The notes beneath the pieces were generated by a model that saw nothing but the letters and a program-made list of their open reading frames with translations, searched no databases and was not told where the DNA came from. This document shows, one piece after another, positions 32,042 to 42,082 of a stretch of DNA of 61,090 bases. The DNA is from Thermoplasmata archaeon (GTDB lineage Archaea; Thermoplasmatota; Thermoplasmata; Lutacidiplasmatales; UBA184). The stretch is from contig JAKASE010000012.1 in the NCBI GenBank assembly GCA_021819135.1, positions 1 to 61,090 on the forward strand, given 5' to 3'. The position numbers and the translations under genes were made by a program. How positions within the stretch are numbered: the stretch's first letter is position 1; each line of letters opens with the position of its first letter.

Positions 32042-32968
32042 CTAGTCGATCGCGGGGACCTCGCCCGACTGGGCGAGCTCGACCGCTCGCAGCGCGACCA
32101 CGAACGCCCCGACCGCGGCGACGGCCGACGTCGCTGCGACCGTGAGCGGGAATATCGCGTCGAGACCGAGGAGATAGAGGGTGAACGGCGCGGCGAGACC
32201 CGCTCCCCCGCCCACGATCCCGAGCGCGGGCCGGTCCGCGCGCCGGGTCCCGAGCGCGGCATAGGCGGCGACCGCCGCCACGAAGCCAAAGAGAACCGTG
32301 GCGCCCCCGATCGAGGCGAGGAGGGTCTCGAGGTCCGGGAAGGCGGACAGCGCGACGGTGGAGGCGTTCCCGACGGGGCCGGGGGAAAGGGTCACGACGA
32401 GCCCCTGGGTGCCGGCGCTATAGACCGGGCTCGCGAACGCGAGCACGACCACCGGCGAAAAGCCCGGGAGCGTCACGTTGAGCGAGTCCCCACCGGCCGG
32501 GACCCCCGTGAAGAGGAACGTGCCGTCGGAGGCGCTGTGGGTCGTCAGCGTCCGCCCGCCCTCCGCGGTCAGTACGATCTGGGCCCCGGCGGCCGGTCCG
32601 ACGCGGCCTCCCGAGCCCTGGGCCAGCACGGTCCCCGAGACCGTGAAGCTGCCGGGACCCCCCGCGAGGACGGCGTAGTAGCCGAGCACGCCCGCGAACA
32701 CCGCCGCGAGGACCACGACCCCGACCAGGCCGACGCCCGCAAGACGCCGGGCGCGCCAGCGGGGCGGTCGGGGGCGGGGGAACATGGGATAAAGTCCCGG
32801 CAGGGCCTCCCAGGAATACAGCGGAGGGAGCTCGCGGGGCGCGAGCACGGGGATCGGCTCATGGCAGCGCGGACAGGCGAACCACTGCGTCGGAGGCGTC
32901 GGCGCCGCCGCGACGACCACGTCGAGCCCGCACGCCGGGCACTTCAGCCTCGTCGTCGGCGCGCTCAT
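32042..32968 (-). CDS. Zinc-ribbon membrane protein with a carboxypeptidase-regulatory-like domain
   Basis: A 308-residue protein of unknown role. An N-terminal zinc ribbon has CPAC (10-13) and CPRC (32-35). A Pro-rich linker and a span (about 75-97, LAGVGLVGVVVLAAVFAGVLG) lead into a beta-rich outer domain with SGTVL, ASDGTFLFTGVPAG and VTLPGF. These are typical of the Ig-like carboxypeptidase regulatory repeat. Three further spans follow in the C-terminal third. The ribbon would face the cytosol and the beta domain the outside. Confidence 0.6.
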   Translation of the reverse strand: MSAPTTRLKCPACGLDVVVAAAPTPPTQWFACPRCHEPIPVLAPRELPPLYSWEALPGLYPMFPRPRPPRWRARRLAGVGLVGVVVLAAVFAGVLGYYAVLAGGPGSFTVSGTVLAQGSGGRVGPAAGAQIVLTAEGGRTLTTHSASDGTFLFTGVPAGGDSLNVTLPGFSPVVVLAFASPVYSAGTQGLVVTLSPGPVGNASTVALSAFPDLETLLASIGGATVLFGFVAAVAAYAALGTRRADRPALGIVGGGAGLAAPFTLYLLGLDAIFPLTVAATSAVAAVGAFVVALRAVELAQSGEVPAID

Positions 32969-33001
32969 CCTTCCCGGCCGACCCCGGCGGAGGTCTTAGC
33001 C

Positions 33002-33637
33002 TTGCGTCGGTCGCTCGCCAAGCCCCACCCGAGGGTCGCCGGGGTCGACGACGGCGCGTTCCACCGGGCGGACCGCGAGGCGCCGATCGCTGCGGTCGTC
33101 CTCTCGGCTCCCGATTACGTCGAGTCGATCCGGACCGGGCGGGTGACGGTCGACGGGACCGACGCGACCGAGCGGGTGATCGACCTCCTCCGCGCGACCG
33201 GTCCGCTCGAGGGGGTGCGGGCGCTCCTCCTCGACGGCGCGGTTCTGGGAGGGTTCAACGTCGTCCACCTGGGCCGGGTCCACCGGTCGCTCGGCCTTCC
33301 GGTGGTCGCGGTCACCCGCCGGCCTCCCGAGTTTGACCGGATCCGGACCGCGCTCGCCAAATGGTTCCCCCGGGACGCGACCCGACGGTGGAAGCTCCTC
33401 ACGGCGCACCGGCTCTTCTCCGTTCCGACCGCCGGTCGACCGATCCTCGCCGCGGCGGTGGGCTGTTCCCGTCGCGACGCGATCCAGCTGATCCACCGCA
33501 CGACCGTGCGGGGGTACTGGCCCGAACCGCTGCGGCTCGCGCACCTCGTCGCCTCCGCCGGGGCCCGGGGGGCCATCGCGTCTCGCGCGAAGGTTAAAGC
33601 CCGCGTTCGCCGTCCGGCGCCCGGGCCTGTAGCTTAG
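33002..33637 (+). CDS. DUF99 family protein (endonuclease V-related fold)
   Basis: A 211-residue member of DUF99, a mostly archaeal family distantly related to endonuclease V. VAGVDDGAF with D16-D17 near the start matches the metal-binding strand. LLLDGAVLGGFNVVHLGRVH is the second conserved acidic strand, and GLPVVAVTRRPP follows. Activity on deaminated DNA has been proposed for the family; it cannot be shown here. The best start is TTG 33002, as no ATG or GTG is near. The stop codon lies inside the tRNA-Arg gene, overlapping its first 15 bases. Confidence 0.75.
   Translation: MRRSLAKPHPRVAGVDDGAFHRADREAPIAAVVLSAPDYVESIRTGRVTVDGTDATERVIDLLRATGPLEGVRALLLDGAVLGGFNVVHLGRVHRSLGLPVVAVTRRPPEFDRIRTALAKWFPRDATRRWKLLTAHRLFSVPTAGRPILAAAVGCSRRDAIQLIHRTTVRGYWPEPLRLAHLVASAGARGAIASRAKVKARVRRPAPGPVA
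33592..33599 (+). promoter_or_regulatory. TATA-like box of tRNA-Arg inside DUF99
   Basis: GGTTAAAG lies about 27 bp before the first base of the tRNA, within the DUF99 reading frame. It would give the tRNA its own transcription start. Confidence 0.5.
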
Positions 33638-33729
33638 CTTGGACAAAGTACTGGCCTTCTAAGCCAGCAAACTCGGGTTCAAAGGCCCCGGGCGCGCCCC
33701 GCCCGGGGCGGAGAGTCCCGACAGGCCCG
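33623..33729 (+). tRNA. tRNA-Arg(TCT) with a 32-nt T-loop intron
   Basis: The mature tRNA is 75 nt. Acceptor GGGCCTG (33623-33629) pairs perfectly with CAGGCCC (33722-33728), and discriminator G is 33729. The D-stem is GCTT/AAGT with A20 in the loop, an Arg identity base. The anticodon stem is CTGGC/GCCAG with TCT at 33658-33660. The T-stem TCGGG (33673-33677) pairs with CCCGA (33717-33721) only after removing 33684-33715, which splits the T-loop as TTCAAA / T between positions 59 and 60. The intron is a G, a 9-bp hairpin (33685-33693 with 33701-33709, 7-nt loop) and GGAGAG. CCA is not encoded. Confidence 0.88.
33684..33715 (+). other. T-loop (59/60) intron of tRNA-Arg
   Basis: A 32-nt insertion with a perfect GC hairpin. 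Exon TTC (33678-33680) can pair with GAG (33711-33713). That leaves AG|T as a three-nucleotide bulge at the 3' splice site and AAA at the 5' site, a relaxed form of the bulge-helix-bulge that archaeal splicing endonuclease cuts. The same arrangement is found in the tRNA-Ala of this window. Confidence 0.85.
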
Positions 33730-33829
33730 ACCCCCAGCGTGCGGGGAGCCTCTATGGTGTCGCATCGGCAGTCCCCACCGCCGGTCCGTTCCGCGGGGGG
33801 GTCGGAGGGGCCCGACCGGAGGTCGCCGA

Positions 33830-34891
33830 TCAGGTCGTCCCGACCTTGGCGGCGCAGATCTCGCACAGGATCCCCCGGGGGCCGGGCGGTAGCGGGTTGC
33901 CGCAGAGCGGGCAGGTCGCCCGCGCATCGGCGGCCGCGAGGAGCTCCTGGACGCTCGTGCGGAGGGCCGGATCGGCGACCGGCCCCACCGACCGGACCGG
34001 TTCGGTGATCGGCCCGACCGCCGGGAGGAACGCCTCGAGCCGGGGGCGGTAGATCGCCATCCGGTGGTCAAAGGTCACCCACTGCCGTTCGACGAGCCCC
34101 TGGAGGGCGGAGTCGACCAGCTCGCGCACCCCTCCGAAGATGTGGGCGAGCTCGACCGCGGTGAGCCCGTTCGACTCGATCAGGACCTCGAGACACCGCG
34201 ACGCGAGCAGGGAGAGATCGCCCCGGGCGATCGCCCGGTCGACCCCCCAGGCGAGCCGGGACGTGCGGCGGACCCGCCGCGCGGACGGAAGGTGACCGGC
34301 CCGGGGATCGGCGAGGAGGTTCGACCGCACGAGGTCGAGCTCGAACCGGATCCGTTCGTCCGGCAGGTAGGCCAGCAGCGCCGCCGAGAACGGCAGGAGC
34401 GAGGATTTCCGGCACGCCGAGACCCCCTCTTCGAGCGTTCCGAACAGGGCGCCAAGCGAGACGCGCGAGCCCCCGGTCGCCGCGCGGTCCTCCTCCGAGC
34501 GCGAGCGGGGTAGGTAGTGCTCGCGGAGGAGCAGACGGACCACGGCCCGCTGGGGGGGGCCGGAGTCCCGTGGGTAGAGGTCACCCGTACCGTCCGGCCG
34601 GACGGAGAGGCGTTCGAACGGCCGCAGGTAGTCCCACGCCGGGCCGGCGGGCGGGGCGGGCTCGAGCCGCAGCTCGGCGGTCGCGGACTTCGCGTTCGGG
34701 TCGGCGAGCATCGCGAAGAAGGTCGGGTACTCCTTCTCGTCGACCTGGAGGACGAACGGCGCGAGCGGGGTACGTCGTCGGCTCAGGAACTCCTCGTAGG
34801 CCCGGGCGAGCGCGCGTCCGGAGTAGGCGTCGTGCCGGTCCCCGGCGAACCGGCGGGCGAGCTGGTCGAGCTCAGAGAGCGGAACGTCCAT
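33830..34891 (-). CDS. Uncharacterised protein with winged-helix and C-terminal zinc ribbon
   Basis: A 353-residue protein I do not recognise. The N-terminal 200 residues are mixed helix and strand, with no known motif. Around 240-285 the pattern LEVLIESNGLTAVELAHIFGGVRELVDSALQGLVERQWVT resembles a winged helix-turn-helix. The end carries CPLC and CEIC (about 328-348), a likely zinc ribbon. A DNA- or RNA-binding role is possible but unproven. Its start overlaps the end of the upstream glycosyltransferase by 20 bp, so the two are probably co-translated. Confidence 0.6.
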   Translation of the reverse strand: MDVPLSELDQLARRFAGDRHDAYSGRALARAYEEFLSRRRTPLAPFVLQVDEKEYPTFFAMLADPNAKSATAELRLEPAPPAGPAWDYLRPFERLSVRPDGTGDLYPRDSGPPQRAVVRLLLREHYLPRSRSEEDRAATGGSRVSLGALFGTLEEGVSACRKSSLLPFSAALLAYLPDERIRFELDLVRSNLLADPRAGHLPSARRVRRTSRLAWGVDRAIARGDLSLLASRCLEVLIESNGLTAVELAHIFGGVRELVDSALQGLVERQWVTFDHRMAIYRPRLEAFLPAVGPITEPVRSVGPVADPALRTSVQELLAAADARATCPLCGNPLPPGPRGILCEICAAKVGTT

Positions 34892-36080
34892 CGCGACGGA
34901 GCCTCCGCTCGGCCGCCAGCGAGTACAGAGAGATAAGTCGCCGGGCCATCGTTTCGAGGGAGCCGTTCCGCCGGACGAAGTCGGCGGCGCGGCGGCCGGT
35001 CTCGGCGCGTACGTTCGGCCGGTCGGCGAGGTCGACCAGCGAGCCGGCGAGCGCCCCCGCCGACATCATCGGTACGAGACGGCCCGTGACCCCGTCCTCC
35101 ACGATCTCGGCGGGTCCGCCGGTGTCGGGGGCCAGGACCATCGACCCGCAGGCCATCGCCTCGAGCAGGGCCACGCTCGAGGTGTCGCTGGTCGAGGGAA
35201 GGACGAAGAGGTCCGTCTGCGCGAGCAGCGCCGCCTTCTCGGCCTCGGCGACCGGTCCGAGGTACCGGACCCGTCCGGCGAGCCGCGGGTCGTTCGCGAT
35301 CCGCTCGCGGACCGCCTCCTCCTCTGGACCGAGGCCCCCGACCACGGCCACGAGGTCCGTGTGCTCCAGGGCCGCCGAGATGGCATCGAGGAAACGGTGG
35401 ACCCCCTTGTCGACGGTGAGCCGCCCGAGGTAGGTGACGAGCGGGTCGTCGGGGAGCCCGCAGCGTGCCCGCCAATCCGGCACCCGCATCGCGGGGCGGA
35501 ACCGTCCGACATCGATCCCGTTCGGGACCACCTCTACCGGGTAGTGGAACGGCTTGCGGGCGCCCTCGAGGAGGGCCTCTCGTGCGGCCGCGGACGGGGT
35601 GGTGGTGAGGTCGCACCGCCAGTACGTACCTAGGTTGTACCACCAGGCGAGCCGGAAGAAGAACGGCACGAGGAACTTCTGCGGCACCGCCTCCCGCATC
35701 TCCCGGATGTTGGTGTGGAACGTCCCGACCAGCGGCCGGTGAAAGCGTCGCGAGGTGAGGAATCCCATGCTCCCCATCGGCCCGGGAGTGTGGAGGTGGA
35801 TCACGTCCGCGTCCCGGCCCCCTCGGGCCTCCCGGAGAAGGCCGAAGGGGAACACCGGCCAGCGGTACTGGCCGTACAGCGGCACGGGGATCGACCGGAT
35901 CCGCCGCACCAGCACTCCATCCCGGGTCTCCTCCTCGGTGCTCCGGCCGGACCGCGAGCTCGGCGCGTAGACCCGGACGGAGTGGCCGAGGCGCACCATC
36001 GTCCGGGCGAGCCCGTCCGTGATGGCGGCGACCCCATCGCGGAAGGGGGGGTAGGAGTCGGTGAAGTAGACGATCTCCAT
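34872..36080 (-). CDS. Family 4 glycosyltransferase
   Basis: A 402-residue GT-B enzyme. MEIVYFTDSYPPFRDGVA at the start and VIHLHTPGPMGSMG and GTFHTNIREM near 95-125 are typical of the mannosyl- and glucosyltransferase group acting on phospho-inositol or diacylglycerol-type acceptors. The donor side has VPNGIDVGRFRP, TYLGRLTVDKGVH and the E-x7-E segment in SDTSSVALLEAMACG. ATG 36080 matches the family start. It may make a glycolipid. A divergent A/T-rich promoter is shared with the serine hydrolase gene. Confidence 0.83.
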   Translation of the reverse strand: MEIVYFTDSYPPFRDGVAAITDGLARTMVRLGHSVRVYAPSSRSGRSTEEETRDGVLVRRIRSIPVPLYGQYRWPVFPFGLLREARGGRDADVIHLHTPGPMGSMGFLTSRRFHRPLVGTFHTNIREMREAVPQKFLVPFFFRLAWWYNLGTYWRCDLTTTPSAAAREALLEGARKPFHYPVEVVPNGIDVGRFRPAMRVPDWRARCGLPDDPLVTYLGRLTVDKGVHRFLDAISAALEHTDLVAVVGGLGPEEEAVRERIANDPRLAGRVRYLGPVAEAEKAALLAQTDLFVLPSTSDTSSVALLEAMACGSMVLAPDTGGPAEIVEDGVTGRLVPMMSAGALAGSLVDLADRPNVRAETGRRAADFVRRNGSLETMARRLISLYSLAAERRLRRDGRSAL

Positions 36081-36113
36081 GAGTGCCCGAACGGGAGCGG
36101 GGCGCACAGGTTC

Positions 36114-36124
36114 GTTAACTTTAG
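36114..36124. promoter_or_regulatory. Divergent promoter (GT4 / serine hydrolase)
   Basis: GTTAACTTTAG is the only A/T-rich stretch between the two divergent genes. It lies about 38 bp from the glycosyltransferase ATG and about 29 bp from ATG 36148 of the hydrolase, so it may serve both. Confidence 0.5.
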
Positions 36125-36147
36125 GGTTGATGGGCACTGAAGGGGGC

Positions 36148-37632
36148 ATGGCCGGAACCCAGCGTCCGGGGACCTCCGAGCTCGAGCGGTACATCGAACG
36201 GTGCCGGCAACGCCGGCGGATCCCGGGCCTCGCGCTCGGGCTCGTCGCGGGGGACCGGACGGTCCTCGCGCGCGGGTTCGGATTCCGCGACGTCGCCGCC
36301 CGCGCCCCGGCGACCGTTCACACGATCTTCGGCATCGCATCGATGACGAAGTCGTTCGTCGCGATGGCCCTCCTGCGGCTCGCGGAGCACGGGGCGCTGC
36401 GGATCTCGGACCCGGTCGTACGGCACCTGCCGGGGTTCCGGACCCCCGAACCGCGGCGGACGGCGAAGATCACCCTCGCCCACCTGCTCTCACACTCGTC
36501 GGGGCTTCCCCCGCTCCCGTCGATCTACTACACCGCGGCCCGGAGCCTGTCCCGCGATCCCCCCTACGACCCCCGGGTCGCCCGCCGGGTCGGGATCGAC
36601 CCCGACCACCCTCCCATCGACACCTACGAGGGGCTCCTGGACTATCTCGCCACGGCCCGGTACCGGCTCCTCGGACCCCCCGGCGCCCAGTTCAGCTACT
36701 CGAACGAAGGGTACGGCCTGCTCGGGGCGGTGATCGAGCGGACGAGCGGCGAGCGATTCGAGCGGTATCTCGAGGAGGAGGTCCTCCGCCCGGCCGGCAT
36801 GCGCCACACGATGTTCGATACGGGCATCATGCTCCGCGAGCCCGAGGTCACCACGCTCTACTCCCCGAACTGGCACCGTCCGAAGGGGAGGCTCGTCGCC
36901 TCCCAGGAGTGGTGGGAGGATGCGAGCCTCCGGGCGGCCGGTTCCCTGCGGACCCACGTCGCCGACCTGATGCGCTACGTCGGGATCTACCTCCACGGCG
37001 GACGGGCGGGTCGGGAGCGGATCCTATCCTCCGCGAGCCTCGAGGAGATGCTCCGGCCCCGCATCGAGGTCGCTCCCGGCGTCGCCTACGGCTATGGTCT
37101 CGCGATCCTGCCGGACTACCACGGGCACCTCGTGGCCTACCACGGCGGGGGACTGAAGGGGGTCGCCTCCGAGTTCGCCGTGCTGCCCCGCGACGGGATC
37201 GGCGGCGCGGTCCTCGCGAACGCGGACGGCGCGCCGAGCCACCTGGCCCTTCATGCCGGGATCAACCGCCTCCTCGGCCTGCCGCTCGCGACCCCCTTTG
37301 AGGAGGTCCCGCGCGGTCGGCGGCACCCGGGACCGCTCGGCGAGTACGCCGGGTGGTACGCCTCGGGCGAGGGGATATGGTGCCGGATCCGTCCGCAGCG
37401 GGCCGGCCTGCGGCTCGACTTCCGTGGGATCGAGTACATCGACCAGGGGCTGCGTCTCCGCCCGGTCGGCGACGACGGGTTCGCCCTGCGGAAGGGGGGA
37501 GAGTCCCGGTACTTCCGGTTCCTCCGGGACGAACGCGGGAAGGTCCGCTCGGTCCATCTCGGCTGGCGCTGGGTGCGCCGCCGCTCCGTGCCGGAGCTCC
37601 GCCGGGCCCGGACGGGCGGGATCGTCTGGTGA
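36148..37632 (+). CDS. Beta-lactamase-family serine hydrolase
   Basis: A 494-residue protein of the class C beta-lactamase/penicillin-binding-protein fold. The catalytic Ser and Lys are S65 and K68 (ASMTKS), and the Tyr motif is Y184-S-N186 (FSYSNEGYG). A HGGGLKG segment near 330 takes the place of the KTG box. The last 110 residues form a beta-rich C-terminal domain seen in esterase and D-aminopeptidase relatives. It likely hydrolyses an ester or amide rather than beta-lactams. No clear signal peptide is seen. ATG 36148 is preferred over ATG 36130 because of its distance from the TATA-like element. Confidence 0.8.
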   Translation: MAGTQRPGTSELERYIERCRQRRRIPGLALGLVAGDRTVLARGFGFRDVAARAPATVHTIFGIASMTKSFVAMALLRLAEHGALRISDPVVRHLPGFRTPEPRRTAKITLAHLLSHSSGLPPLPSIYYTAARSLSRDPPYDPRVARRVGIDPDHPPIDTYEGLLDYLATARYRLLGPPGAQFSYSNEGYGLLGAVIERTSGERFERYLEEEVLRPAGMRHTMFDTGIMLREPEVTTLYSPNWHRPKGRLVASQEWWEDASLRAAGSLRTHVADLMRYVGIYLHGGRAGRERILSSASLEEMLRPRIEVAPGVAYGYGLAILPDYHGHLVAYHGGGLKGVASEFAVLPRDGIGGAVLANADGAPSHLALHAGINRLLGLPLATPFEEVPRGRRHPGPLGEYAGWYASGEGIWCRIRPQRAGLRLDFRGIEYIDQGLRLRPVGDDGFALRKGGESRYFRFLRDERGKVRSVHLGWRWVRRRSVPELRRARTGGIVW

Positions 37633-37656
37633 CCGACCTCGTCGGTCGGCCGCCGC

Positions 37657-38442
37657 TCAGAGGACCGTCTCGAACGCGCGCTCGAGGAGGCTCATCTCGC
37701 GGAGGTCGAGGGCGCGCCGGTCGAAGGAGACGATCAGGCCGGAGCCGGTCTCGCGCGCCTGCGCGACGAGCCAGTGGACGAACTTGAGGGTCGTGTCGAG
37801 CGAGTACTCCGTCGCGAGATACTCGAGCGCGTCGACGTAGAGGAGGGCCCCGCCGTCCGCCTCCGTCGGGTCGCGAAGGCGTCCGCCGATCTCCCCCGGC
37901 GCGAGCCGGGCCTCCGGGCTCCCGCCGGCCCCGGCGCCGCCCACGACGAGGTCGATCCGCCGGTCGGGGGGAACGCCGGGAACGTCGGGAGGCCTTAGGG
38001 AGACCGTCGCGAGGCGGGGGAAGCCCGCGGCGTTCGACCGCAGGATCTCGAGGGCTCGCGCCGGCCGCTCCTCGCGGACGAGAACGCTCTTGCCCGGGAG
38101 GATCCGCACGGAAGGGGCCCCGCCGCCCGTCAGCGGCGCGGTCCAGGGGCGCGCGGCCTGTGGGGGGCGCAGGAGCGAACCCCACGCCGGTCGTCGCGGG
38201 GGTGCGAGGAGGCTCTTCCGTTTGATCTCGACCTCCTCGGGCAGCCGGGCGAGCCGGCTCTCGACGAGGATGCGGAGCTCCTGGGCGGTGTGGCCCCGCG
38301 ACGTGTGCTGGAGGACCTCCCGCAGCGCGCTCCGCACGCCTTCCTCATAGCCGGACGCGTACGTCCTCGCGAACTCCTCGTCGGCCGGCGGCTCGTCGGA
38401 CGGGGCCGGGGGCGGCTCGGTCCGGCGATCCGGCGCGCTCAC
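37657..38442 (-). CDS. DUF835 domain protein
   Basis: A 261-residue protein. The C-terminal part matches DUF835, a domain common in Thermoplasmata and Thermococci signalling proteins. It includes PGKSVLVREERPARALEILR, the FPRLATVSLRPP strand and LLYVDALEYLATEYSLDTTLKFVHWLVAQARETG, ending with LIVSFDRRALDLREMSLLERAF. The first 90 residues form a charged helix (YASGYEEGVRSALREVLQHTS, then LRILVESRLARLPEEVEI). It may sense or relay a signal, but no partner is evident. The start overlaps the DUF35 stop by 4 bp. Confidence 0.75.
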   Translation of the reverse strand: MSAPDRRTEPPPAPSDEPPADEEFARTYASGYEEGVRSALREVLQHTSRGHTAQELRILVESRLARLPEEVEIKRKSLLAPPRRPAWGSLLRPPQAARPWTAPLTGGGAPSVRILPGKSVLVREERPARALEILRSNAAGFPRLATVSLRPPDVPGVPPDRRIDLVVGGAGAGGSPEARLAPGEIGGRLRDPTEADGGALLYVDALEYLATEYSLDTTLKFVHWLVAQARETGSGLIVSFDRRALDLREMSLLERAFETVL

Positions 38443-38930
38443 GCCGTGGCCCGGTCCTTCGCCGCCGCTTCGGCCTTCGGGACGGGCACCGACGGACCCC
38501 GGGCGGCCGGCGCCTCCCCGGGCTCCTCCACGGGCGCGAACTTGTAGCCGTAGTGGATCACGCCGGCCTTTCCCTCCTCGCGGAGCTTGCGGAACGTCGC
38601 GTGCACCCGCAGGCCGATTCGGACCTCCTCGGGGGCGACGTCGACGACCTGGCCGGTCAGCATCGGTCCCTCGACGGTCTTCACGAGCGCGACCACGTAC
38701 GGGACCTGCATCTCGAACCCTTCGGCCGCCTCATGGACGACCGAGTAGGAGAAGACCTCCCCTTCGCCCGAGAGCTGGAACGGCATCATCTTCTCGATCG
38801 ACTGGCGGTGGCTCGTGCAGTGGGGGCAGACGCTCCGCGGGGGGAAATAGACCGTACTGCACGTCGAGCACTTCGATCCGCCGAGGTTGTAGCGTCGCGG
38901 GGTCTCGCGCCAGAAACGGGCGATCGACAT
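38439..38930 (-). CDS. DUF35 OB-fold/zinc-ribbon protein of the HMG-CoA synthase complex
   Basis: A 163-residue scaffold protein. The rubredoxin-like zinc ribbon has C21/C24 (CSTC) and C35/C38 (CPHC), followed by an OB-fold (GEGEVFSYSVVHEAAEGFEMQVPYVVALV). The last 30 residues are an Ala/Pro-rich tail. In archaea such proteins hold thiolase and HMG-CoA synthase together, so acetoacetyl-CoA passes directly between them. The gene order here (synthase, thiolase, DUF35) is the same. Confidence 0.85.
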   Translation of the reverse strand: MSIARFWRETPRRYNLGGSKCSTCSTVYFPPRSVCPHCTSHRQSIEKMMPFQLSGEGEVFSYSVVHEAAEGFEMQVPYVVALVKTVEGPMLTGQVVDVAPEEVRIGLRVHATFRKLREEGKAGVIHYGYKFAPVEEPGEAPAARGPSVPVPKAEAAAKDRATA

Positions 38931-38939
38931 GGTCTTCCC

Positions 38940-40109
38940 TCAGTTCCCCCGTTCGAGCAGGTGCACGACGCTCGTCGCCCCGGTCCCGCCCACATCGTGG
39001 GTGAGCCCGAGCGCGGCCCCCGGCACCTGACGATCTTTCGCCTCGCCCCGGAGCTGTCGGACGATCTCGACGACCTGCGCCACCCCCACGGCGCCGAACG
39101 GACGGCCCTGGGCCTTGAGGCCTCCGGAGGGGTTCACCACGGTCCGGCCCCCGGGGCCGAACGTCCCGCTCGAGAACTCCGCGCCGGCGCGGCCCTTCTC
39201 GACGAACCCGAGGTCCTCGAGCGCGACCAGCGCGCTGATCGAGTATCCGTCGTGGATCTCCGCCACCCGCACGTCGGGGGGCGCCCGGCGGGCGCGCCCG
39301 AAGGCGCGGCGGGCCGCCTCGACCGTGGACGCGAGGGTCGTGATGTCCTCGCGGTGTTGGAGGGCCATCGTGTCGCAGGCGACCTCGCTCGCCGCGATCC
39401 GGATCGGCGTGTCGGTATGCTTCCGCGCGGTCTCGAGCGGGCCGAGGACGACCGCGGCGGCGCCGTCCGAGAACGGCGCGCAGTCGAGCATGCCGAGGGG
39501 CTCGGCGACCGGTCCGGCCCCGAGCACCTGCTCGAGCGTGAGCTTGTTCCGGTAATGCGCGTTCGGGTTCCGCGCGGCCATCGCGTGGGCGTGGACCGGG
39601 ACCTGGGCGAGCTGTTCGCGCGTCGTCCCGTACTGGTGCATGTGCCGTCGCGCGAGCAGGGCCCAGAGGGCCGGGAGCGTCGCCCCAAAAACGACCTCCC
39701 ACTCGTGGTCGGCCGCCGAGCTCGTGATCTCGGAGGCGGTCGCATCGGGGACATCGGTCAGCTTCTCCGCCCCCCCGACGACGACATAGTCGTAGAGGCC
39801 GCTCGCGACCGCGAGGTATCCCTGGTGGAGCGCGAGCGAGCCGGACGCCCCGCCGCCCTCGATGCGGACGCTCGGGAGGTGCCGACCGGCAAGACCGGCA
39901 TAGTCGAGGATCAGGGGGGCGATGTGCTCCTGGTCGATGAGGGTCCCGGACGCCATGTTGCCGAGGTAGAGGGCGTTCAGGTCGCTCGAAGAGAGCTTCG
40001 CGTCGACGAGCGCCTCGAGCCCGGCCTCGATCCCGATCTCCCGGAACGACCGGTCCCAGAGCTCGCCGAACTTCGTCTGCCCGACGCCGAGCACCGCGAC
40101 CTCGCGCAT
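38940..40109 (-). CDS. Thiolase of the mevalonate cluster, lacking catalytic residues
   Basis: A 389-residue archaeal thiolase (SCP2-like group) starting MREVAVLGVGQTKFGELWDRSF. In the family, VEAACASG supplies the nucleophile and KxxGHPxGATG the His base. Here these read IEGGGASG (Gly at 87 in place of Cys) and KAQGRPFGAVG (Arg336 in place of His). The EIHDGYS His (H286) and THDVGGTGAT end remain. The enzyme probably cannot catalyse normal condensation and may be a structural partner of the complex. It lies 2 bp from the HMG-CoA synthase gene. Confidence 0.85.
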   Translation of the reverse strand: MREVAVLGVGQTKFGELWDRSFREIGIEAGLEALVDAKLSSSDLNALYLGNMASGTLIDQEHIAPLILDYAGLAGRHLPSVRIEGGGASGSLALHQGYLAVASGLYDYVVVGGAEKLTDVPDATASEITSSAADHEWEVVFGATLPALWALLARRHMHQYGTTREQLAQVPVHAHAMAARNPNAHYRNKLTLEQVLGAGPVAEPLGMLDCAPFSDGAAAVVLGPLETARKHTDTPIRIAASEVACDTMALQHREDITTLASTVEAARRAFGRARRAPPDVRVAEIHDGYSISALVALEDLGFVEKGRAGAEFSSGTFGPGGRTVVNPSGGLKAQGRPFGAVGVAQVVEIVRQLRGEAKDRQVPGAALGLTHDVGGTGATSVVHLLERGN

Positions 40110-40111
40110 CG

Positions 40112-41164
40112 TCACTCGCCTCCCATGTGGATCTTGCCCCGGAACTTCGCGTAGACGGCGTACGACAGCTCGACGCCCTGGTCGAGGTACCACTGGACCG
40201 GCCGACCGTGGTGTCGGTCGAACCGGGCGATCTCGTCGGTCGTTTCGAGGTCGAACGCGTCCGAGCCGGCCCCCGAACCGTATCCGACCACGAGGATCCG
40301 TTCGCCGGGTCCGGCGTGGTCGAGGACGTTCGCGAGGCCGATGAGCGCCGCGCCGGAATAGGTGTTCCCGATGTAGGGGGTCACGAGGCCGTATCGCATC
40401 TGGGCGTCGGTGAAGCCGAGCTGCTTGCCCACCCGCTGGGGGAACTTCCCGTTCGGCTGGTGGAAGACGACGTGCCGGTAGTCCTTCGGACCGGTCCCTC
40501 CCGCCTCCATGATCCGCCGCGCGCACTCCGACTCGTGCCGGAAGTACGCGGGCTCACCGGTGAACCGCCCGCTGTGGCTGGGGTACTTCTGGCCCTCCCG
40601 GCGCCAGAAGTCCGGGGTGTCGGTGGTGTACGAGAGCGTCCGGTGGACCCGGCAGATCACCCGGTCCCGGCCGATGACGAACGCGGCGCCGCCGGCGCTC
40701 GCGGAGTACTCGAGGGCGTCCCCCGGGGCCCCCTGCGACGTGTCGGTACCGATCGCGACGCCGTACCGGATCATCTCCGACCCGACGAGCCCGAGGCAGG
40801 TCTGGATCGCGGCCGTTCCGGCCTTGCAGGCGAACTCGAAGTCGGCCGCGGTGAGGTTCGGGGTGGCGCCGACCGCCTGCGCGACGACCGTCGCGGTCGG
40901 TTTGACGGCGTACGGGTGCGACTCGGACCCGACGTAGATCGCGCCGATCTCTTGCGGGTCGATCGCGCCGCGGAGGAGCGCGGTGCGCAGCGCCTCCGTC
41001 GAGATCGTGATCGTATCCTCGTCCGGCGAAGGGACGCTCTTGCGGACCACGTTCAGGTTGTGGCCCATCGCCTCGCCGTCCGAGCCCCAGACCCGACCGA
41101 TCTCGGCGGGGGTGATGCGGTATCTCGGTACGTACGCTCCGTAGCTGACGATCCCTGCTTGCAT
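40112..41164 (-). CDS. Hydroxymethylglutaryl-CoA synthase
   Basis: A 350-residue archaeal HMG-CoA synthase that joins acetyl-CoA and acetoacetyl-CoA in the mevalonate route to isoprenoid lipids. The catalytic triad is visible: E81 ([10 protein letters not shown]), C113 (FEFACKAGT) and H235 (FHQPNGKFP). Length and the opening [17 protein letters not shown] match archaeal enzymes. It is the first structural gene after the regulator and precedes thiolase and DUF35. Confidence 0.93.
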
Positions 41165-41203
41165 GGTTCCGTTCCTTCCTTCTTCGAGCTCGATCCCTTC
41201 GGA

Positions 41204-41881
41204 CTAGAGGTCCTCCAGCCGCTCGAGGAGCTCCGAGGCCCCGAGGGGCGTGGTGAGGAGCGGGATGTTCTCGACCTCGCTGAGGCGGATGGCGAGCGGG
41301 TCGATCCGGCCGGGGGCGGCGAAGACCACGGCCGCCGGCTTCAGCGGGTGCGCGCGGATCGCCACCATCGGAGACCGGCCGTACTTGACGTTGGAGAAGA
41401 TGAGGGCCCGCTGGGTCGTCCAGCCGTACACCTCGACGAAGCGGGTCGCGTCGATCGAGAGGATCGCCCGGGGGGCATCGAGGACCGTGAACCCGTGGAT
41501 GTCCCGGTGGAGTCCGACCCGGCTCACCGCCCGTGCGTTCAGGCGGTCGGCGAGCGCGCGGAGGGGGATCGCCACCGCGAACTCGCGCATCCCGAGGATC
41601 CCTTCGGAGTGGGGGTGCAGCCCGAGCCGCTGGCTGACGTGTCCCCCGTTCTCCGCATCGACGGCGAGCAGCGCCTCGACGTAGCGACGGATGAACCCGG
41701 CCCCGGGGCTCGCCCGACGCTCCGACTCGTAGTCGCTGATCACGCTCGGCACCGTGTCCAGGTGCTTTGCGAGGTCGCGCTGGGAGATCGCAAAGCCCTC
41801 CCGCCACTTCCTAAGGGTCCGCCCGGGGTGGGGGGAGAGGACGACCTCGCCGGCGATCTTCTCTCGGATCTCGGCGTCCAC
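41204..41881 (-). CDS. Helix-turn-helix regulator of the HMG-CoA synthase cluster
   Basis: A 225-residue regulator. The Xre-type helix-turn-helix is at about 25-70 (FAISQRDLAKHLDTVPSVISDYESERR). The C-terminal domain of about 150 residues, with VYGWTTQRALIFSNVKYGRSPMVAIRAHPLKPAAVVF, is shared by archaeal regulators found beside this cluster. It probably controls the mevalonate genes downstream, 39 bp away. The ligand is unknown. A TATATTTATACC-like stretch (plus-strand GGTATAAAT, 41902-41910) is about 25 bp upstream. Confidence 0.75.
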   Translation of the reverse strand: MDAEIREKIAGEVVLSPHPGRTLRKWREGFAISQRDLAKHLDTVPSVISDYESERRASPGAGFIRRYVEALLAVDAENGGHVSQRLGLHPHSEGILGMREFAVAIPLRALADRLNARAVSRVGLHRDIHGFTVLDAPRAILSIDATRFVEVYGWTTQRALIFSNVKYGRSPMVAIRAHPLKPAAVVFAAPGRIDPLAIRLSEVENIPLLTTPLGASELLERLEDL

Positions 41882-41901
41882 GGAGGGCGCCGAGGGTCCC
41901 C

Positions 41902-41910
41902 CCGGTATAA
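41902..41910 (-). promoter_or_regulatory. TATA box of the mevalonate-cluster regulator
   Basis: GGTATAAAT on the plus strand (ATTTATACC on the coding strand) lies about 25 bp before ATG 41881, the spacing of a leaderless archaeal promoter. Confidence 0.6.
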
Positions 41911-41976
41911 ATCGATGCGCATGGTGTCGGTGGGAAGGCTCGACATCTGCCGATGGACGGGCCGGACCCGGGGGAG

Positions 41977-42082
41977 TGGACCGGGCGAGACTCTCCGGCC
42001 GAGAGCGGTACGCGCTCGCGACCCTTTGAACTCGCGACCTCTACCTTGCCAAGGTAGCGATCTTCCGCTGATCTACCGGCCC
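41977..42082 (-). tRNA. tRNA-Ala(GGC) with a 34-nt T-loop intron
   Basis: The mature tRNA is 72 nt. Reading the minus strand, acceptor GGGCCGG (42082-42076) pairs with CCGGTCC (41984-41978), including G3-U70, the identity pair of tRNA-Ala. The discriminator is A (41977). The D-stem is GATC/GATC. The anticodon stem is CTACC/GGTAG with GGC at 42050-42048. The T-stem GCGAG (42035-42031) pairs with CTCGC (41989-41985) only if 42024-41991 is removed, splitting the T-loop as TTCAAA / T (59/60). The intron is a G, an 11-bp hairpin with one mismatch and a 5-nt loop, then GGAGAG. Confidence 0.88.
41991..42024 (-). other. T-loop (59/60) intron of tRNA-Ala
   Basis: A 34-nt insertion at the same position and with the same layout as in tRNA-Arg: a single G after TTCAAA, a hairpin (42023-42013 with 42007-41997), then GGAGAG directly before T60. 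Exon TTC can pair with GAG of the intron end, leaving AG|T bulged at the 3' junction. Confidence 0.85.

Follow-up and report, generated by a model that had tools for sequence, protein, structure and literature searches.

What are the insertions that interrupt the T-loops of two tRNA genes in this window, the whole 61,090-nucleotide stretch of DNA analysed here, and how would they be removed? The window comes from a Thermoplasmata MAG, which its relatives place in Ca. Lutacidiplasmatales/UBA184. A scan of the window that requires an anticodon arm, an acceptor stem of 7 bp and a T-stem of 5 bp whose strands are separated by 11-60 inserted nt returns exactly two loci, tRNA-Arg(TCT) and tRNA-Ala(GGC), while 40 dinucleotide shuffles of the window return none. 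As first noticed from the letters alone, both genes share one architecture, with an intron between positions 59 and 60 that starts with G and ends in GGAGAG. The features are as follows.

33623..33729, plus strand: tRNA-Arg(TCT) gene, exons 33623-33683 and 33716-33729
33678..33681, plus strand: T54-T55-C56-A57 of tRNA-Arg(TCT), putative exon strand of the bulge-helix-bulge (BHB) central helix, from 57/-6 covariation in 142 introns
33684..33715, plus strand: T-loop intron of tRNA-Arg(TCT), position 59/60, 32 nt, G...GGAGAG
33710..33713, plus strand: intron bases -6 to -3 (GGAG) of tRNA-Arg(TCT), putative opposite strand of the central helix, with G at -6 mismatched to A57
41977..42082, minus strand: tRNA-Ala(GGC) gene, exons 42082-42025 and 41990-41977
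41991..42024, minus strand: T-loop intron of tRNA-Ala(GGC), position 59/60, 34 nt, G...GGAGAG

In the Arg gene, T-stem TCGGG and loop TTCAAA are followed by the 32-nt intron, T60 and CCCGA; in the Ala gene, GCGAG and TTCAAA are followed by the 34-nt intron (42024-41991), T60 and CTCGC. With the introns removed, both genes form 7 of 7 acceptor and 5 of 5 T-stem pairs. They match the covariance model R1, which was partly built from these same two genes, at 91.8 bits (Arg) and 89.2 bits (Ala). Standard tools fare worse: the Rfam tRNA model gives the Arg gene 39 bits and closes it inside the intron, and ARAGORN on the window finds the Arg gene only, likewise closed inside the intron, and misses the Ala gene. 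MAG tRNA counts made with tools similar to ARAGORN and Rfam, the two compared here, can therefore be too low.

A genome search of the kind suggested by the first-pass annotation does find T-loop introns, together with places of other kinds. The pattern GTTCRAA...GGAGAGT occurs at four places, two of them the window introns; the third is a Met tRNA in which GGAGAGT follows a D-loop insertion, and the fourth holds no tRNA by ARAGORN. A looser pattern hits seven places, four T-loop introns and three others. Because such patterns mix true and false places, R1 was used instead and is the source of most relatives. It includes the 57/-6 pairs, so the larger intron set leans towards them, and intronless tRNAs match it too, at up to 61.3 bits for loci of the window's own genome, so that counts at E<=1e-9 are mixed and separable only by length or by script. 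At E<=1e-12 the matches are mostly intron-bearing genes, and the count, with 13 candidates scored per genome, is too low: it recovers 9 of 11 in the own genome (G000) and 0 in G038 and G039 despite their T-loop introns, and the 226 genomes without a match at this threshold may still hold some. Gly and Arg(TCG) genes stayed outside alignment A4 and R1, their intron ends having been displaced by MAFFT. An anticodon filter removed some genes with additional insertions, among them both in G053, as well as the Gly(TCC) genes of G000 and G029 and the Asn gene of G029; the last three were inspected by eye.

How widespread are these introns? They interrupt 11 of the 39 tRNA genes seen in G000 and 14 of the 43 seen in G029, a relative whose completeness is rated at 100%. 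Both totals, taken from RF00005 at E<=10 with one Leu gene added by script, are incomplete, no Ile(GAT) being seen in G029 and no His or Asn in G000. Ten of the 11 genes of G000 come from RF00005 and the eleventh from a script that does not use the 57/-6 pairs; excision restores the 7-bp acceptor stem and 5-bp T-stem (G-U allowed) in all 11, both being required by the script. All 36 other genomes of the genus have at least five R1 matches, with at least one of 99 nt or more among the matches listed, and reading by script identifies T-loop introns in 29 genomes of the genus, G000 among them. The proposal of a general feature of this lineage thus holds up. Misassembly or pseudogenes could be suspected where standard finders miss or truncate the genes. 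Matches of 99 nt or more throughout the genus, and in named MAGs as well, speak against this, as do the sole Asp, His and Asn tRNAs seen in G029, essential isoacceptors that all carry a T-loop intron, and such an origin is barely credible.

Most tRNA genes of the own genome do lack a T-loop intron (28 of 39), an outcome that had been expected to count against a general feature, yet the feature is general and heritable. The same count bears on a different account, in which the introns are retained for breaking up the attachment site that integrases find in the tRNA 3' end. The 3' half of tRNAs is a common target of archaeal integrases. Viral or other mobile elements are also suspected behind split tRNA junctions, in the passages of PMC3218864 consulted. 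With 28 of 39 and 29 of 43 genes lacking a T-loop intron, this account seems improbable.

The initial reading left open whether an intron family had spread to, or become fixed in, the T-loops of many tRNAs. Recent copying of a mobile family, as described for Thermoproteales, would explain why ends and position are common to many isoacceptors. However, hairpin likeness between isoacceptors averages 0.475 against 0.462 for shuffled hairpins (99th percentile 0.72 against 0.69), hairpins within one isoacceptor are more alike (0.56), and no hairpin copies are seen by eye among the 11 introns of G000. Ten isoacceptors are intron-bearing, by script, in all four genomes compared. This persistence, with the weak hairpin likeness, points to old fixation rather than recent spread, and a recent mobile origin is accordingly quite implausible. 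Ser(CGA) of G000 provides a precise empty site: it reads TTCAAAT without an intron, the joined Ser(CGA) exons of three relatives are identical to it at 82, 81 and 82 of 87 positions, and their intron borders agree with it. Together, the ten isoacceptors and the empty site indicate, at the level of sequence, that the intron set is inherited and not freshly mobile.

The intron ends suggest how the introns would be recognized. Exon base 57 and intron base -6 covary across 142 distinct introns: G57:C in 55, A57:G in 76, A57:T in 8, G57:A in 2 and A57:C in 1, which is a standard pair in 63, A.G in 76 and a break of the rule in 3. These introns were drawn from 69 genome entries, some of them duplicated (G065 repeats G025 coordinates), and are related sequences, over which a p-value is no fair probability. 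In the own genome, where the 11 genes are of different isoacceptors, G57 goes with C(-6) in 5 of 5 and A57 with G(-6) in 6 of 6 (Fisher p=0.002). Throughout the genus A57 is nearly always opposite G. Within Arg(TCT) alone the pair swaps between A:G (24), G:C (3) and A:T (1). All 142 introns kept by the anticodon filter have G at base -5, opposite C56; the base is C in tRNA-Asn of G029, a gene outside that set, and C in 1 of 70 genus introns in a separate script reading. The covariation argues that the BHB, canonical in its other features, has a central helix of 4 nt formed by T54-T55-C56-R57.

The bulges A58 A59|N1 and N-2 N-1|T60 fit a 3-nt BHB by position, whereas RNAfold pairs UUC with the GAG at -3..-1 in its preferred structure for each of the two window T-arms, a register other than that of the central-helix model; this alternative is possible because the intron end reads GAGAG. 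Hairpins counted from pair 2/-7 have a mean of 4.5 pairs against 0.73 when shuffled; with the register shifted by one base, the means are 1.2 and 0.6. Of the 142 hairpins, 64 have fewer than four uninterrupted pairs. The GGAGAG end is present in both window introns and proves to be one form of a looser end over the 142: mostly C or G at -6, G at -5, A or G at -4 and -3, mostly A at -2 and any base at -1. The leading G also occurs in both and is not conserved, the 70 genus introns starting with G in 37, C in 17, A in 10 and T in 6.

Could the motif instead be a relaxed one, its central helix only 3 bp long and its cutting dependent on a specially adapted endonuclease? The A.G mismatch at the inner pair, in 76 of 142 introns and in 53 of 75 in the genus, leaves three standard pairs only, and both window introns are among these. 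Against that reading, position 57/-6 covaries, the fourth pair is standard in 63 of 142, and the bulges keep their 3-nt length, all of which favour four canonical positions. What remains is the enzyme.

The endonuclease, a chain of 354 aa, has two PF01974 stretches in one frame, two PF02778 stretches as well, and there is no other PF01974 match in the own genome at E<=10. Its monomer model has a pLDDT of 91.9, and the best solved folds for it are M. kandleri 5x89 and A. fulgidus 2gjw, with ARMAN-2 4fz2 lower (TMq 0.57). Y292, H300 and K331 of the second repeat, the presumed catalytic residues, fall within segments alignable to the A. fulgidus chain; no comparable set is seen by eye in the first repeat. 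In sequence alignment the chain lacks the insertion of about 10 residues found near the N-terminus of the A. pernix chain, presumably the CSL; CSL and ASL are lineage-specific loops close to the active site of broad-specificity enzymes. Repeats, alignment and predicted fold thus classify it, as the initial reading had recommended doing, as a single alpha'2-type chain of two repeats in which neither a CSL nor an ASL loop is evident. This gives no sign of the specially suited enzyme that had been proposed, and the relaxed motif with its adapted endonuclease is a less probable alternative. Strong R1 matches occur in 63 of the 137 genomes that show two PF01974 repeats, in 1 of the 145 that show one and in 4 of the 12 in which no repeat was found. 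A genome was counted under one repeat if it had a single PF01974 match at E<=1e-5, and some of these frames are long, for example 372 aa in G083; any link between repeats and T-loop introns is confounded by ancestry, cut-offs and incomplete R1 scoring.

These are very probably protein-spliced archaeal tRNA introns, an old inherited set in which the canonical BHB has been shifted from the anticodon loop to the T-loop. In the precursor, the T-stem would act as the exon helix, T54 T55 C56 R57 would lie opposite intron bases -3 to -6, A58 A59|N1 and N-2 N-1|T60 would form the two 3-nt bulges, and the intron hairpin would begin with base 2 paired to -7. The single-chain alpha'2-type endonuclease would cut this T-loop BHB, and a ligase, with RtcB expected, would join A59 to T60. 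As T-loops hardly differ in sequence between tRNAs, one type of intron end could suit many isoacceptors, leaving the hairpin free to drift. The intron set would have been largely fixed before the genus diversified and then passed on by isoacceptor, with few losses or gains.

In BHB introns at 37/38 the exon strand lies 5' of the first bulge and consists of anticodon-loop bases, whereas here it would be T54-R57. The canonical euryarchaeal BHB at 37/38, as passages of PMC6379350 describe it, has the same 4-nt central helix and two 3-nt bulges. According to parts of three papers (PMC4090602, PMC6379350, PMC12397907), endonuclease type sets the tRNA intron spectrum, and many or oddly placed introns are tied to special endonucleases with extra loops. 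Euryarchaea with alpha4 or alpha2 enzymes are described, in a section of PMC4090602, as having introns in fewer than 10% of tRNAs, one intron each, at the canonical position. Here enzyme family and motif are the same, and T-loop introns alone occupy 11 of 39 and 14 of 43 genes, which contradicts this published rule of few introns, at 37/38 only, in euryarchaea with a narrow-class enzyme. A quarter to a third of tRNA genes with T-loop introns and a plain two-repeat enzyme, in acid-loving archaea, mean that the rule needs changing: the decisive factor may be whether a site forms a canonical bulge-helix-bulge, anywhere in the tRNA. More tentatively, and a little short of even confidence, the T-loop would be a preferred site since its TTCR offers one BHB strand; such introns would be old in Thermoplasmatota and would have reached up to a third of tRNA genes in Lutacidiplasmatales, with an ordinary alpha'2-type enzyme that tolerates or reads A.G, so that the motif and not enzyme type sets the load if both repeats are intact. 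The position-57 swap offers a handle on how strictly the enzyme reads its motif.

Thermoproteales use position 59/60 too. Many BHB introns outside 37/38 are likewise described for Pyrobaculum and Thermofilum in portions of PMC8450103 and PMC4033280, the former giving P. calidifontis 46 tRNA genes with 71 introns between them. The Pyrobaculum enzyme is of the broad (alpha-beta)2 type (PMC6379350, in part), whereas the enzyme here is alpha'2-type and 59/60 is the main non-canonical position; the same excerpts state archaeal T-loop intron positions in general. Permuted tRNAs of Thermofilum pendens and Cyanidioschyzon merolae have the same 59/60 junction with a BHB (PMC3218864, in part), unlike the present genes, whose halves stand in normal order with the intron between them. 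The Asgard Atabeyarchaeia and Freyarchaeia, also from wetland soil, have many non-canonical introns, in 92-95% of tRNA genes by the excerpts of PMC11291895, against 11 of 39 and 14 of 43 here. No report of T-loop introns in Thermoplasmata or Lutacidiplasmatales was found in the open literature, covered mostly as titles and abstracts, and "intron" occurs 0 times in the main text of PMC9287336; single Thermoplasmata cases may well be listed in GtRNAdb, preprints or subscription papers.

The two window genes had been called unlinked. In a relative (G001), both are intron-bearing and lie 5.6 kb apart on opposite strands, which does not sit well with that description. Pairs of opposite-strand R1 matches 5-7 kb apart, with isotypes read for some of them, are listed in several other genomes of the genus.

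Two tRNA genes of the window are interrupted in the T-loop:

33623-33729, + strand: tRNA-Arg(TCT), with a 32-nt insertion at 33684-33715
42082-41977, - strand: tRNA-Ala(GGC), with a 34-nt insertion at 42024-41991

The insertion site in both is between bases 59 and 60, and taking the insertion out restores the T-stem (5 bp) and the acceptor stem (7 bp). ARAGORN calls the Arg gene alone in the window and places its end within the intron, as does Rfam. A structural scan (acceptor stem, T-stem across the insertion, anticodon arm) gives 2 matches in the window versus 0 in 40 dinucleotide shuffles. Coordinates, restored stems and shuffle control bear out the first-pass annotation, which had placed both genes and their 59/60 insertions. 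The spacing of the two genes in the genus relative G001 (5.6 kb, opposite strands) resembles that in the window (8.3 kb). The 5' end of tRNA-Arg (33623) shares 15 bases with the end of a same-strand ORF (32537-33637, + strand) that encodes an Endonuclease dU domain (PF01949); a 517-aa Beta-lactamase-family (PF00144) protein of ordinary annotation (36079-37632, + strand) adjoins a family 4 glycosyltransferase.

The host genome is an archaeal MAG of 2.20 Mb, 91% complete, with the window as contig 30. Its tRNA genes total 39, counted as 38 RF00005 matches at E<=10 plus one Leu(TAG) found by the scan and later by R1, a covariance model built on nine of its genes. The scan reads T-loop introns in 11 of these 39: Gly(TCC), Glu(CTC), Arg(TCT), Ala(GGC), Ser(GCT), Ser(GGA), Asp(GTC), Gln(CTG), Arg(TCG), Lys(TTT) and Leu(TAG). 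Further tRNAs show, by eye, introns near 37/38 or D-loop insertions. Lys(TTT) (locus L037, 312-454) and Leu(TAG) (L040, 387-531) combine the T-loop intron with a D-loop insertion; in Met(CAT) (L029) and Arg(GCG) (L035) a D-loop insertion is the only one. At G000:C16:8042-8129 of the host genome (L029/L032), CTCTCTCGGAGAGT directly follows a Met tRNA, and its end resembles an intron end, probably by chance. The genus relative G029, rated 100% complete, has T-loop introns in 14 of 43 genes (12 by script, Gly(TCC) and Asn(GTT) by eye), the total being 42 RF00005 matches plus Leu(TAG) and incomplete, with no Ile(GAT) among it. The sole Asp, His and Asn genes among the 43 all carry introns, which would therefore have to be excised in the cell.

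At E<=1e-9, R1 gives 5-17 matches in each of 36 other genus genomes, counts that include some intronless genes, and a match of at least 99 nt is listed for every one. Named genomes, again mixing both kinds, give UBA184 12, UBA61 15, AcS1-67 10, YP1.bin63 16, AcS5-107 15, AcS5-58 15, CP070736 3 and CP070748 3. Among fetched loci, T-loop introns are read by script in 29 genus genomes, the host included. Together with the counts in the two genomes, this upholds the earlier proposal of a general feature of the lineage. Outside the host's family, 12 genomes of the order and class were searched, and T-loop introns are read by script in 11; the exception, G051, whose endonuclease is short (289 aa), has 10 R1 matches, all of 73-75 nt. 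Across the phylum, 68 of 294 genomes have a match at E<=1e-12, with 13 candidates scored per genome, so that the 226 matchless genomes may still carry introns, as G038 and G039 do. Matches at this threshold number 5-10 per genome in 16/16 genomes of the host's family, 1-2 in positive genomes of the other families of order and class, and 1-5 in the rest. A tRNA gene in another compared genome (G053, L240), whose anticodon place reads CAT, combines a T-loop intron with an insertion close to the anticodon.

The introns are alike in anatomy (-1 being the final intron base). In the 11 host introns, collected without a model of the central pairs, G57 goes with C(-6) in 5/5 and A57 with G(-6) in 6/6 (p=0.002). 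Among 142 distinct introns from 69 genome handles (some genomes stand under two handles), mostly fetched with a model containing the central pairs and so leaning towards them, positions 57:-6 are G:C in 55, A:G in 76, A:T in 8, G:A in 2 and A:C in 1. Base -5 is G in 142/142, a purine (A or G) stands at -4 and -3 in every one, and base 60 is T in 142/142, though the scan permits C; the anticodon filter left out tRNA-Asn of G029, where -5 is C. Because of these regularities, T54-T55-C56-R57 is placed opposite -3 to -6, with 3-nt bulges A58 A59|N1 and -2 -1|T60, a predicted layout that is the canonical bulge-helix-bulge (BHB), given in an excerpt of PMC6379350 as a 4-nt helix flanked by two 3-nt bulges. 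The first-pass annotation had proposed a relaxed BHB of three base pairs; the window introns do lack a standard inner pair, having A.G as do 53/75 genus introns, but the 57/-6 covariation points to a central helix of 4 nt, with a predicted canonical geometry. For the two window T-arms RNAfold pairs the other GAG (-3..-1), an alternative that ends like GGAAAC do not offer. The intron hairpin starting from 2/-7 has a mean run of 4.5 pairs versus 0.73 in shuffled introns, with 1.2 and 0.6 in slid registers; uninterrupted pairs number fewer than 4 in 64/142.

Mean hairpin identity is 0.56 within an isoacceptor, 0.475 between isoacceptors and 0.462 after shuffling. Ten isoacceptors are intron-bearing in every one of the four genomes that the script compared, and Gly(TCC) is an eleventh with by-eye genes. 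Ser(CGA) of the host (L019, G000:C7:54293-54379) has an uninterrupted TTCAAAT where G001, G018 and G029, all of the genus, have an intron, and their joined exons are 81-82/87 identical to it, suggesting precise loss or recent gain. The simplest account would be an old inherited set with some loss or gain.

The host endonuclease, an alpha'2-type chain judged from its sequence and model, has two PF01974 matches within one frame, in a 354-aa protein that also has two PF02778 stretches. In the second repeat, Tyr, His and Lys, the presumed catalytic residues, lie in stretches aligning to A. fulgidus EndA. The solved structures nearest to the predicted fold (pLDDT 91.9) are M. kandleri 5x89 and A. 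fulgidus 2gjw. Among the best 80 of 517 relatives, the protein matches Thermoplasmata MAGs including UBA184 (78%) and the AcS/SubAcS soil set. Part of PMC9287336 assigns UBA184 and AcS genomes to Ca. Lutacidiplasmatales, from acidic habitats, with GC of 67-71% among the rows examined. On the strength of these matches the host MAG probably falls in that order as well. Strong R1 matches occur in 63/137 phylum genomes with two recognisable repeats, 1/145 with one and 4/12 with none found, an association that ancestry could account for entirely. In G136:C75, a contig of a compared genome, the endonuclease stands in two identical-scoring copies on opposite strands, perhaps an assembly effect.

Judged from sequence, this is a real, heritable, lineage-wide T-loop intron set whose members share a predicted BHB, canonical in geometry, and it sits in a group where the literature consulted would not predict one. 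According to an excerpt of PMC12397907, alpha'2 enzymes have no ASL-like loop, which may restrict them to canonical BHB motifs; an excerpt of PMC4090602 puts the share of tRNAs with introns at <10% in euryarchaea that have such enzymes, with a single, canonically placed intron. The latter statement, as excerpted, is contradicted by this lineage. The canonical-motif limit of PMC12397907 could still hold for this lineage, should the T-loop motif, in spite of its frequent A.G pair, count as sufficiently canonical.
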